From the IMG/VR virus record IMGVR_UViG_3300043496_000093, positions 1-22,753 of that record: a stretch of 22,753 nt of DNA, one strand, 5' to 3'. Position 1 is the first letter of the stretch. Each line of letters starts with the position of its first letter. The DNA comes from a virus. A program made the position numbers and the translations under genes. The notes beneath the pieces are model-generated. The model saw only the letters and a program-made list of their open reading frames with translations, was not told where the DNA came from and did no database searches. Below, one piece after another: positions 5,689 to 12,611 of the stretch.

Positions 5689-5713
5689 GAGCGAAAAACG
5701 ACAAAAAATGATA

Positions 5714-5740
5714 GAGGCTGCCAAGTGCAGCCTCTTTTTT
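5714..5740 (+). terminator. Intrinsic terminator of the 5227 unit
   Basis: GAGGCTGC and GCAGCCTC form an 8-bp stem around a CAAGT loop, then six T. Confidence 0.9.
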
Positions 5741-5791
5741 ACTGCGTGCGCCTAGTGTCGTGCGTCAGCACAAAACACGGCCGACAGTTTT

Positions 5792-5834
5792 ATATATACG
5801 CATCCTATATATATGTCATAGGATGCGTATATAT
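5792..5834. repeat. 17-bp perfect inverted repeat with 9-bp spacer
   Basis: The left arm 5792-5808 (ATATATACGCATCCTAT) is exactly complementary to the right arm 5818-5834. It lies in a non-coding stretch (5741-6045) between a terminator and the next promoter. TTTT follows, so transcripts entering from the left would meet another hairpin. The DNA could also extrude a cruciform or bind a dimeric protein. Confidence 0.85.
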
Positions 5835-5851
5835 TTTCGATATGTTGTGCT

Positions 5852-5872
5852 ACACACACACACACACACACA
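5852..5872. repeat. AC dinucleotide microsatellite
   Basis: Ten AC units plus a terminal A, in the same non-coding stretch as the inverted repeat. Such runs are rare in compact phage genomes and prone to slippage. I see no coding frame using it. Confidence 0.9.
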
Positions 5873-5953
5873 TAGATAATATAACTAATCCCAGGCCGGT
5901 TTACAGGTCCCCCATAGCGCATCGCACCAAGCGCATAACCCTCCCAGGGAAGA

Positions 5954-8655: not shown

Positions 8656-10086
8656 ATGAAGAAGACATCACTGTCTGTTGCAATTGCCATTGCCTTTGGA
8701 TCAGCGCAGGCCCAAAGAGCACCGAATGAGGTGATCATCTACACCCCAGTAGATGGCACAGTATCAATTGGGAGGCGTAGCACTAACACCAATAGAACGG
8801 TGGAAGTCCTGGTTAACAAACAGGACAAAGTGAAACAGATAGTGATGGAATGGAAGTTCGTCGCTAATGAGGGACAGCCATTTGTCATCCCCGTATATCC
8901 TCAGAAGGTCCGATACGGGGTGACAGGCTTCTGGATCGAGAAGATCCTCGAGGCGGGTGGGACCTGTACCAATGCGTTCTTCGGTGGTGACCCCCGCGAA
9001 GGAGTTGTCAAGCGTTGCGAGTATTGGACAGGCCCACCTCAAGTCGTAATTAAACCACCACCAACCGACCATGGAGCGGGTCTTCCCGTTAACATCGATG
9101 GCATTACGTTCCAACCAGGCATCAACTATCAATACCTGTCAGAGCCTGGACCTCAGAAACCAGTTGCTCAACCCGGAGACTGGGAAAAGGGGGGCGACCT
9201 CCGTACCCTTTGCAATGCAACGAAGATGGCGCGAGATGATCCTATCGTTAACCCGGGTCAGCCAGGTGCAGCGCACATGCACACGTTCTTCGGAGCGGTC
9301 AATATCAACGCCTACACAACTCCGGAAAACATCAGGCTTAACAATCAGTTCTCCTCCTGTCGCGGGGGAATGATCAACTCGACTGGCTACTGGGTGCCTA
9401 CGTTGTTTGACATGGCCACGGGCAAGGCGATAGTACCGAGACAAAATCTTGTGTATTACAAGACACAGCTCTGGTCGTACATGATCGGGTTTCCGAACAT
9501 CACTCCCCTCCCCCAAGGCCTGAGGATGGTGACAGGGGATGCGAAGGCTACGAGTGGGACAAATTGGAATACCAGCTATGGCTGTCTGATGCCGGCACTG
9601 GGCTACAACCGACCCATTCCAACCGACCGTACTGATAAGCAGATCCCCGATTGGTGTGCTGTAGGGGACCAGATGTGGCAGGTCATCAACTTCCCACAAT
9701 GCTGGGATGGCGTCAACCTGGATAGCCCCGACCACAAGGCTCATATGGCCTTTCCGGTAGCCAACACGATTCCCCCAGGTACACCGGAACGCCAATACAA
9801 ATGTCCAGACACTCATCCAAAGGTCATCGTTGCCATCAGCTACCACATCCAGTACAATGTGCCAGCGAATCCGGATGAGATGAAGAAGTGGGCGCTCTCA
9901 AGCGATGTCTACAAAAATACTGAACCAGATAAGCCAGGTGGATACAGTTCGCATGGCGATTGGATGTACGGATGGGACCCCGCTATTTCTAATTTGTGGG
10001 GTGCTAACTGCTCGCAAGTTCGACGGGACTGCGGCAGCCATGAAGTCGGCGACGGCCGTCAAGCACTTGAGTTTCAAGGAAACTAA
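8656..10086 (+). CDS. Exported DUF1996-domain protein
   Basis: 476 residues with a clean signal peptide: KK, a hydrophobic core, then AQAQ giving cleavage near residue 19. Residues 20-135 form a beta-rich preface. Residues about 180-460 carry the hallmarks of DUF1996: DDPIVNPGQPGAAHMHTFFG (194-213), STGYWVPTLFD, INFPQCWDGVNLDSPDHKAH, CPDTHP and SSHGDWMYGWD, with many Cys and conserved His. DUF1996 is known mainly from secreted proteins of fungi and actinobacteria, and its activity is not settled. Histidine/aspartate clusters suggest metal or sugar binding. Ribosome site GGAGAGG. In a phage it would go to the periplasm or outside, suggesting host-surface change or an added factor. Followed directly by the Acb2 homolog. 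Confidence 0.88.
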   Translation: MKKTSLSVAIAIAFGSAQAQRAPNEVIIYTPVDGTVSIGRRSTNTNRTVEVLVNKQDKVKQIVMEWKFVANEGQPFVIPVYPQKVRYGVTGFWIEKILEAGGTCTNAFFGGDPREGVVKRCEYWTGPPQVVIKPPPTDHGAGLPVNIDGITFQPGINYQYLSEPGPQKPVAQPGDWEKGGDLRTLCNATKMARDDPIVNPGQPGAAHMHTFFGAVNINAYTTPENIRLNNQFSSCRGGMINSTGYWVPTLFDMATGKAIVPRQNLVYYKTQLWSYMIGFPNITPLPQGLRMVTGDAKATSGTNWNTSYGCLMPALGYNRPIPTDRTDKQIPDWCAVGDQMWQVINFPQCWDGVNLDSPDHKAHMAFPVANTIPPGTPERQYKCPDTHPKVIVAISYHIQYNVPANPDEMKKWALSSDVYKNTEPDKPGGYSSHGDWMYGWDPAISNLWGANCSQVRRDCGSHEVGDGRQALEFQGN

Positions 10087-10087
10087 C

Positions 10088-10312
10088 ATGAGTTTTACAC
10101 AGCCAAACATTAGAGGTTATCGGCAGTTAACTGAGGAGGATGCCAAGTTAATTAATGAGGTTAAGGACAAAGCTGAAGAGGTTGGTCAGCTAATTGCGAA
10201 GCTCAAAGATCAACCCGGCATTGATGGACGTTGGGTGTCCATCGGAGCAACTCAATTGCAGCAAGGTTTCATGGCTGTGATTCGGGACATTACACAACCA
10301 GCCACATTTTGA
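10088..10312 (+). CDS. acb2: Acb2-family cyclic-nucleotide sponge (anti-CBASS), probable
   Basis: 74 residues from ATG 10088, AAGGAA upstream. The sequence follows the Acb2 pattern: an N-terminal NIRGYRQLTEEDAKLINEVK stretch, then DGRWVSIGATQLQQGFMAVI and RDITQPATF. Acb2 proteins are small helical hairpins that assemble into hexamers and soak up cyclic di- and trinucleotides made by CBASS immune systems. By count, Tyr is residue 11 and Lys is residue 26. As I recall, these are the numbers of the ligand-binding Tyr11 and Lys26 of Pseudomonas phage PaMx33 Acb2. It sits behind an exported accessory protein in the early operon, a fitting place for a counter-defence gene. Identification is by motif memory, without a search. 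Confidence 0.83.
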   Translation: MSFTQPNIRGYRQLTEEDAKLINEVKDKAEEVGQLIAKLKDQPGIDGRWVSIGATQLQQGFMAVIRDITQPATF

Positions 10313-10313
10313 A

Positions 10314-10397
10314 ATGGACAAAGCAAAGAGCATGATCCTGGCTGTTGTCATTGGCATCTTGCTAGCGGCAACATTGGTACACTGGTGGTCTACATAG
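10314..10397 (+). CDS. Possible 27-residue single-pass membrane peptide
   Basis: ATG 10314 starts two bases after the Acb2 stop. The product is MDKAKSM followed by a hydrophobic stretch ILAVVIGILLAATLVHWW and ends ST. One clean transmembrane helix with a charged N-terminus is seen. There is no separate ribosome site, so translation would depend on coupling with the Acb2 homolog. Its shortness leaves real doubt; a chance reading is possible. Confidence 0.4.
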   Translation: MDKAKSMILAVVIGILLAATLVHWWST

Positions 10398-10412: not shown

Positions 10413-10463
10413 TGTAACGAATCGTAAATAGATTTTACGCCAAGTGCACCTCTGTGTTATAAT
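10413..10463 (+). promoter_or_regulatory. Phage-type promoter with operator, for the primase operon
   Basis: TGTAAC 10413, CGTAAA 10423, TTTACG 10434-10439 as the -35, an 18-base spacer, TATAAT 10458-10463. CGTAAA/TTTACG form an exact inverted pair. Confidence 0.85.
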
Positions 10464-10489
10464 AGATTTGATGCCTGCAATGGGTATCG

Positions 10490-10586
10490 TTTTCCTGGTA
10501 GGTGCTTGGTTGCACCAGCGGATCAAAAGCGGAGGGACTAACCAACCCTCCGCTTCCGCCTTCATCCCAGGAATATACCAGGAAAA
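10490..10586 (+). ncRNA. Structured 5-prime leader enclosing the primase ribosome site
   Basis: TTTTCCTGGTA (10490-10500) is exactly complementary to TACCAGGAAAA (10576-10586). Inside lie GGTGC/GCACC (10501-10505 with 10512-10516) and GCGGAGGG/CCCTCCGC (10529-10536 with 10546-10553). The right outer arm contains AGGA (10580-10583), the only good ribosome site for GTG 10590. A second CCAGGA at 10568-10573 could compete for the left arm. The leader thus can hide or free the ribosome site. It is a cis-regulatory RNA candidate; the ligand or protein is unknown. Confidence 0.62.
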
Positions 10587-10589
10587 TTT

Positions 10590-12611
10590 GTGGCGACTAT
10601 TCAACTCTTTGCCCCACCGCCTCCAGCACCATGGGATAACGAGAGCGTCGGCTTTATGACAGCCGATTTAGCCAGATCTGGGTTGATCCCTGAAGACCTA
10701 GCTGCATATGCGATCGCTAGTACTAAATATAGCGCTCCAGCTTATTTAATTCCTTATAAGGACAATGACAATCTTTGGCGTTGCCGTATTTGCCGAGAAC
10801 AAGACAAGTACATCTCGACTACTAATGGCAAGCCAGATATTTGGATACCTCCACAGACTGAGCTCGCAGGTCTCTATGACGGGGATCTGTTCATCGTTGA
10901 GGGGGAGAAGAAAGCGGCTGCAGTCTATAAATACTGGAACTTTGCAAGCGTAGTCGGCATTGGTGGATGTTGGAATGCTGTTACTAAAAATGAGAAGAAT
11001 GAACAGTATCGACTTACTGAAAAGCTTCAGATTCTAATTACACCAGGTCGCAAAGTACACCTCATTCTTGATGGCGATGTCATTGAGAATAAAAACGTTG
11101 GGCGTGCAGCTATAACATTGAATAGTTGCATCGAAGCACTTAACGGCGTCATGCAGTTGTATCGGCCCCCTACAGAATGGAAGGGGGTAGACGACTATAT
11201 CTTTCAAGAGCCAAAGGCAAGCTTTGAACTCCTTGAAATGGTTCCACTCGAGAAGCTTGCAATCAATCGCACGCTTCTGTATACTCAGCTTGAATGTAGT
11301 CTTGGTGCTAATGGTCAGCTCATAGCTAATGAACTAAATGCTGCCAAGCTAATAGCCTATCATTTCAAATCTTTGCAAATCTTTAAAGACAAACGTCTTG
11401 GTTTCATTGATGCAACTCGTCGACCTGTAGCAGCAGACAAACTTGCATCTGCAGCTCTCCATTATCTACAAGGTGACATTAGCCCCCGTTATCCTTCTGG
11501 AGCCATAAACGGAGGCTTTACGGACTATGTAGCTTCAGGCGATAATGAAACCGACTTGGTTCAAGATCTTATTAAGAATCGTCTTGTTTGGGATGGTGTT
11601 GAGCGCCTTGAAACTTGGGGTAGCGAGTATTTCGAGACAGAGCTGCCAAAGCTTGCAAATGAGTGGGGCCGAATCTTGTTTACTGCGCTGGTCTCGCGTA
11701 TACTCGAACCAGGTTGTAAAGTAGATACTGTTTGTATCCTTAATGGTCCGCAAGGAATCGGTAAGACTACATTCTTCACTGAACTTGCTACTATTGATGG
11801 ATACAACTTTTATAGAAATGTCACTGATCTTCCTGGATCAACAGGTGATGATCGGACCTTTAAACAGACCCTTGTTGTATCATTAGTCGTAGATCTTGGC
11901 GAGGGGATAATCTTTGAAAGTAGAAAGACTTCGAGTGACAGACTCAAGCAATTCATAACTGACCAGTATGATGAGTACCGCGTTGCATATGCCAAAAATA
12001 ATACCAATGCACCACGAGGCTATATCCTGGTTGGGACTACAAACCGAAGTGATCAATTAACTGATCTTACAGGCTCACGCAGATTCCTGTATCTTAATAC
12101 TAAAAAGATCAAACGTCTCGAGTATCCGATCAAGCTTCAATTGTTAGCTGAAGTAGCAGCAAAGTATGAAGAAATTCGGAAATCAAACTGGTATAATCTA
12201 CGTTTGGCTCGGGAAGACTTGCCACAAGCATTGCAAGATGCACATCCGCATATAACTGAAGTCAATGAACTACTTAACATTCAACATTACCGTTCTGATC
12301 CATTAACAGATGTAATCCAACAACTTCTTGATAATGATGATGTTTCAAGGCTTAAAGAGAAGGATGAAATCATTATCACTGCAGCATTTGTTTCTTCTAG
12401 AGTAAATAAAGCTGGTGATTTAAGCTTTACTGCTTTAGTTGGACGTAAGTTTGTAGAACTAGGTAGTTCGCCAATCTTTCCATATACATTTGAACGAGTC
12501 CGTAAGCGTACAAATCAAGTAAATTACAAACAAGGACATAAGGAGGTATATAACACGCTAATAAGCAATGAACAAGGTATGTTTACTGGATTCATAGTTA
12601 AAAGGAAATAG
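10590..12611 (+). CDS. Toprim-like primase / VirE-like superfamily 3-type helicase
   Basis: 673 residues from GTG 10590 (AGGAAA upstream, inside the leader stem). The N-terminal part has RCRICREQ and a toprim-like module: FIVEGEKKAAA (E104) and HLILDGD (D161/D163), as in DUF3854-type primase domains. The C-terminal part is a VirE/DUF5906-type helicase: LNGPQGIGKTTFF Walker A (385-396), VVDLGE Walker B (433-438), sensor VGTTNRSD and arginine-finger TGSRRF (494-499). It would prime and unwind at the phage fork. The classic zinc-ribbon is reduced to one CxxC (65-68). The gene is AT-richer and uses more A/T-ending codons than the next genes, hinting at a separate origin. Ligase follows two bases on. 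Confidence 0.88.
   Translation: MATIQLFAPPPPAPWDNESVGFMTADLARSGLIPEDLAAYAIASTKYSAPAYLIPYKDNDNLWRCRICREQDKYISTTNGKPDIWIPPQTELAGLYDGDLFIVEGEKKAAAVYKYWNFASVVGIGGCWNAVTKNEKNEQYRLTEKLQILITPGRKVHLILDGDVIENKNVGRAAITLNSCIEALNGVMQLYRPPTEWKGVDDYIFQEPKASFELLEMVPLEKLAINRTLLYTQLECSLGANGQLIANELNAAKLIAYHFKSLQIFKDKRLGFIDATRRPVAADKLASAALHYLQGDISPRYPSGAINGGFTDYVASGDNETDLVQDLIKNRLVWDGVERLETWGSEYFETELPKLANEWGRILFTALVSRILEPGCKVDTVCILNGPQGIGKTTFFTELATIDGYNFYRNVTDLPGSTGDDRTFKQTLVVSLVVDLGEGIIFESRKTSSDRLKQFITDQYDEYRVAYAKNNTNAPRGYILVGTTNRSDQLTDLTGSRRFLYLNTKKIKRLEYPIKLQLLAEVAAKYEEIRKSNWYNLRLAREDLPQALQDAHPHITEVNELLNIQHYRSDPLTDVIQQLLDNDDVSRLKEKDEIIITAAFVSSRVNKAGDLSFTALVGRKFVELGSSPIFPYTFERVRKRTNQVNYKQGHKEVYNTLISNEQGMFTGFIVKRK

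Follow-up and report, generated by a model that had tools for sequence, protein, structure and literature searches.

A covarying RNA leader that probably controls translation of a primase-helicase gene in uncultured phages

Introduction

The leader of the phage lambda N gene, with its nut site and its long RNase III stem, is opened by RNase III, and purine-type riboswitches are built on a three-way junction with a contact between two inner loops. The leader of MS2, an RNA phage, has a fold unlike that described here. Control of the MS2 maturation gene is kinetic, as the ribosome site is hidden by a strong fold of the leader and opened by a transient fold of the nascent chain (PMC6071253). Genes 43 and 32 of phage T4 carry translational operators, a simple hairpin or a pseudoknot, that are bound by the gene product (PMC3014915).

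Here we analysed a 22.7-kb IMG/VR virus record of an uncultured phage (22,753 nucleotides, hereafter the window), in which a structured leader precedes a VapE-like primase-helicase gene. As in the MS2 maturation leader (PMC6071253), a strong fold hides the ribosome site and a predicted nascent alternative would open it; unlike MS2, the RNA is the mRNA of a DNA phage, has its own promoter and forms a three-way junction. The T4 gene 43 and 32 operators are likewise structured leaders of phage replication genes that overlap or adjoin the ribosome site, yet they bear no sequence relation to this locus, and whereas they are a hairpin or pseudoknot with a bound product, binding of a protein to the present leader is hypothetical. 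It resembles the lambda N leader in that an early-operon leader stem is predicted to limit initiation, but neither nut nor a long RNase III stem was recognised in it. With purine-type riboswitches it shares the three-way junction and a possible contact of the inner loops, but its joining strands are 0, 1 and 16 nt long and no Rfam riboswitch model matches.

Results

A terminase gene occupies 860-1990 on the minus strand of the window. The replication genes are on the plus strand and comprise the primase-helicase gene, an ATP-dependent ligase, a 3'-5' exonuclease-like ORF, DNA polymerase A, a PD-(D/E)XK nuclease, a helicase and thymidylate synthase. Since the start codons of aligned homologs (GTG, TTG or ATG) fall at the same residue position, the GTG start at 10590 is supported. 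The best terminase relatives among the matches listed are 31-36% identical and belong to phages of many hosts, the HIP1 octamer, a clue to a cyanobacterial host, is not enriched, and the searches of named phages and genomes brought up no near relative of the virus group.

The sequence-only reading had drawn a perfect 11-bp outer stem (10490-10500 with 10576-10586) that includes the ribosome site, AGGA, six bases ahead of GTG 10590, and encloses two hairpins. The stem is exact in the sequence, the ribosome site lies within it and both hairpins are there; the stem (P1) lengthens to 12 bp with one G·U and closes a three-way junction around P2 and P3 (Table 1). The upper stem of P3 has 9 bp in the window and is capped by the loop ACTAACCAA (10537-10545), and a conserved 5-nt bulge, NCAAA, lies at 10523-10527. 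The transcription start was inferred from a promoter whose position is kept in the homologs, where it reads TTTACA (TTTCCT in L006), an 18-base spacer and TATAAT.

Table 1. Positions in the window of the leader elements and of the gene they precede
Feature	Positions	Strand	Basis or remark
Sigma-70-type promoter, TTTACG-18-TATAAT	10434-10463	+	Same place in homologs
P0 hairpin, GATGCCT-GCAAT-GGGTATC, at the predicted transcript 5' end	10470-10488	+	6 of 7 pairs doubly changed
P1 left arm, GTTTTCCTGGTA	10489-10500	+	Fold and covariation
P2 hairpin, GGTGC-TTGGTT-GCACC, loop complementary to P3 loop	10501-10516	+	Fold and covariation
P3 hairpin, lower stem GCGGA/TCCGC	10518-10559	+	Fold and covariation
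CCAGGAA (P1'), alternative partner of left arm 10492-10498	10567-10573	+	Nascent-chain folds, complementarity test
P1 right arm, TACCAGGAAAAT	10576-10587	+	Fold and covariation
AGGA ribosome site, six bases 5' of GTG	10580-10583	+	Sequence
VapE-like primase-helicase, 673 aa, gene probably controlled	10590-12611	+	PF05272 and DUF3854

The fold energy of the leader is -57 kcal/mol (z -4.52; none of 200 shuffles was equally good), energies here and below being those of nearest-neighbour models without pseudoknots. In a scan of 756 segments on both strands of the window its segment came 11th (z -4.2), and as other segments reach similar z values, fold energy alone is insufficient and does not make the leader unique. 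Two other strongly structured stretches are 5701-5880 on the plus strand (z -4.8 to -6.3) and 10141-10260 on the minus strand (z -6.7). Covariation is the stronger evidence for the leader structure.

Searching IMG/VR with the protein turned up this gene behind a homologous leader in five other distinct virus records. The records that bear the leader fall into three lineages, with proteins 56-76% identical, and since the upstream genes differ between lineages, promoter and leader travel with the primase-helicase gene. Between the window and L005 the leader is 90-98% identical, the gene about 75% on average (60-base bins). Six distinct leaders were compared, those of the window (L002 is identical), L005, L013, L018, L004 and L006. 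A covariance model built from two near-identical leaders, the window and L005, matched L013 (E 1.4e-9), L006 (1.5e-6), L004 (6e-6) and L018 (1.5e-4), each time at the leader of the primase-helicase only, in one copy per record and on the plus strand; antisense matches of the model reflect self-complementarity and were excluded from the pair count. A structure-guided alignment was used, as the right arm of P1 was put in the wrong place when RNAalifold was run on the raw MAFFT alignment. In the resulting six-leader alignment (A9) compensatory changes occur at 28 of 38 base pairs, compared with 3-9 in slid controls, and 95.5% of cells are paired, compared with at most 52%; A9 was fitted to the model, so that these counts favour it, and a hand alignment agrees.

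All five helices covary, among them P2 and the upper stem of P3. Nine core pairs of P1 are fully paired in every leader of the three lineages and eight of them are doubly changed, the core arms reading UUCCUGGUA/UACCAGGAA, UCCUGUGCU/AGCACAGGA and UUGGUGCAG/CUGCACUAA. The lower stem and bulge of P3 are almost invariant (GYGGA-NCAA(A)-...-UCCRC). Thus the compensating changes that were to be looked for across related phages are present, and they occur together with the same downstream gene and a ribosome site or start region within the structure, the marks of a conserved cis-regulatory leader; the covariation rests on only three independent lineages.

As the antisense strand of the leader folds too (z -3.2) and the leader lies directly 5' of a replication gene, we considered a DNA-level element, such as an origin or protein-binding palindromes, or a chance structure. 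The compensatory changes exclude chance. Read on the plus strand, the non-canonical pairs are 16 G·U and a single A·C, indicating that the leader is a transcribed RNA, and we regard this alternative as highly improbable.

The earlier proposal that the structure can hide the ribosome site holds for all leaders in its outcome, but not in its device. AGGA is within P1 in the window, L005 and L013, whereas in L004, L006 and L018 P1 stops just before CCGAGA, which can form a hairpin with UCUUGG across the start codon. This second hairpin, in which the ribosome site of these three leaders lies, is weaker than P1, so that their exact device is not that of the window; its stem is retained between L004 and L006 while the loop differs. 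Either P1 or a hairpin abutting it is thus directly 5' of the start codon in every lineage. Opening the ribosome site is calculated to cost 6.1 kcal/mol in the window, 8.6 in L013, 4.0 in L004 and 3.1 in L006, and for the full-length L004 leader the predicted optimum is a fold other than the consensus. On these models every leader hides its start region, by one of two different local devices. The opening cost in the window leader declines smoothly, from 8.6 kcal/mol at 20 C to 5.1 at 45 C by the energy model only. A plain thermosensor, one of the readings first offered, is made less likely by the elaborate conserved architecture.

A second CCAGGA had been said to compete for the left arm of P1, giving two exclusive states. 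The motif is present, at 10567-10572, one base from where it had been placed, and extended to CCAGGAA it can pair over 7 bp with the left arm (P1'). For window chains of 104-110 nt, ending at or just past CCAGGAA, P1' is the optimum, and in chains of at least 114 nt P1 takes over. A window leader whose ribosome site is forced open also folds best with P1', which leaves AGGA exposed at a cost of about 6 kcal/mol. This order of pairings recurs in the nascent-chain folds of the other lineages, an alternative pairing of the left arm preceding P1. Compared with shuffled linkers, in a test made post hoc after the pairing was noticed, P1' complementarity is significant in the window (p 0.004) and in L013 (0.05 by run, 0.004 by energy) and not significant in L004, L006 and L018, the third lineage. 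As the nascent folds agree but the complementarity is significant in two of three lineages, a P1/P1' switch is plausible and partly supported.

These folds would also suit a purely kinetic control, in which no ligand takes part and translation occurs mainly before P1 replaces P1', as in the MS2 maturation gene. The order of pairings is kept, as this would need; however, the ribosome site belongs to the right arm of P1, so that the open interval would be short, and P1' lacks significance in one lineage. We consider control by kinetics alone unlikely.

The P2 loop of the window, UUGGUU, exactly complements AACCAA in the P3 loop over 6 bp (chance 0.001), and in L013 four pairs are kept, UGGU/ACCA (chance 0.06), both values having likewise been computed post hoc. 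L018 has no such complement and has a different P3 loop, and in the third lineage P2 carries a GNRA loop (GUGA). The P2-P3 loop contact may therefore be taken as a lead and not as a result. Together with the three-way junction, the perfect complement in the window, the shorter one in L013 and the GNRA loop would fit a small-molecule riboswitch of an undescribed class, in which P2 and P3 lie side by side through the loop-loop contact. Against it stand the weak statistic in L013 and the missing contact in L018, few unpaired bases are strictly conserved and no Rfam class fits, making a riboswitch quite unlikely in our view.

An RNase III processing or antitermination element, of the type of the lambda N leader or the HK022 put RNA, could also place long stems right after the promoter of a multi-gene operon, and would end at the gene by chance. 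However, right arm and start codon stay linked in all lineages, which antitermination does not need, and the upper stem of P3 has just 8-10 bp across leaders, which is short for RNase III. This we hold to be more improbable still than a riboswitch.

Discussion

As the closing stem of a conserved folded RNA hides the ribosome site, the output of the gene is probably controlled by RNA folding, and we put the probability that the leader is a cis-acting control of translation initiation of the primase-helicase at roughly two in three. The most economical reading is that of a replication operon whose leader is off by default or tuned down. In the computed architecture the conserved promoter begins the RNA at or beside P0, followed by P1 enclosing P2 and P3 in the three-way junction. 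We propose that the finished fold would bury the ribosome site, from which we infer that translation is low by default. During RNA synthesis the left arm would first pair with CCAGGAA, and this P1' state, if held, would keep the ribosome site open until displaced by P1, so that a factor favouring one or the other pairing would set the amount and timing of the primase-helicase.

Sequence by itself cannot separate a protein, a metabolite, folding kinetics and RNase III as the trigger. Our first choice, a guess to which we give clearly less than even odds, is a phage or host protein acting on the P2/P3 domain and the NCAAA bulge. As a refinement of the proposed translational control, the primase-helicase, or some other replication protein that the operon encodes, might bind P2/P3 and lock P1, making the leader an autogenous operator. 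Such a role would suit a controlled gene that encodes a replication protein and a bulge, NCAA(A), that has invariant GGA/UCC on either side in all leaders, and has precedents in T4 gp43 and gp32, which act on their own leaders (PMC3014915); but the P3 loop is different in L018 and six leaders are too few for protein-RNA co-evolution, and we see autogenous control as tentative, with the odds against it. A bolder version, which we regard as speculative and rather doubtful, is a new class of three-way-junction riboregulator that is docked by the P2 and P3 loops, has a replication protein or a nucleotide signal as its input and, by switching between P1 and P1', times the whole replication operon.

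No Rfam 15 family matched anywhere in the window at the gathering cut-off, and at E<=10 the best match to the leader was an antisense miRNA model (15.6 of 95.5 bits). Neither a BLASTN search of named phages with the leader nor the protein search in genomes gave a match, and nothing specific on this leader type was found in open-licence papers. We regard the leader as a new RNA family of a known kind, not represented in Rfam 15: a strongly covarying RNA found only as a replication-gene leader in uncultured phages. It offers a compact system in which to test whether RNA folding serves DNA phages to time their replication, and other viromes can be searched with its model. A helicase-based search gave 12 contigs, among which the leader model matched only in L112 and L113, both already-known records.

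Several candidates were rejected. The pattern GGATCAA..CTAACCAACC has 73 matches in IMG/VR, with the flanking stem only in the window family and L013, and L121, its lone match in 85,000 genomes, has no covariance-model match even at E<=10. A leader peptide in the frame from GTG 10444 to 10659, which runs through the window leader, is by eye not kept in other lineages.

The region 5' of the leader holds further plus-strand ORFs. A small ORF just upstream (9905-10312) has an Acb2/Tad1 hairpin domain (PF24729, E 5e-15), which suggests a cyclic-nucleotide sponge against CBASS or Thoeris; it is partly present in L005 and absent from the stretches examined 5' of the leader in L013, L018, L004 and L006. 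A 476-aa protein with DUF1996 (8656-10086; PF09362, E 1e-45) and a signal-like N-terminus had no match in a PHROG search. Between the Acb2-like ORF and the promoter lies a hydrophobic 27-aa peptide, MDKAKSMILAVVIGILLAATLVHWWST (10314-10397), which is retained in L005 (85%). In L018 and L013 an imperfect inverted repeat seen by eye, TGTAAC-N4-GTTTACA (before L018:1856 and L013:1876), overlaps the -35 box and is a possible operator.
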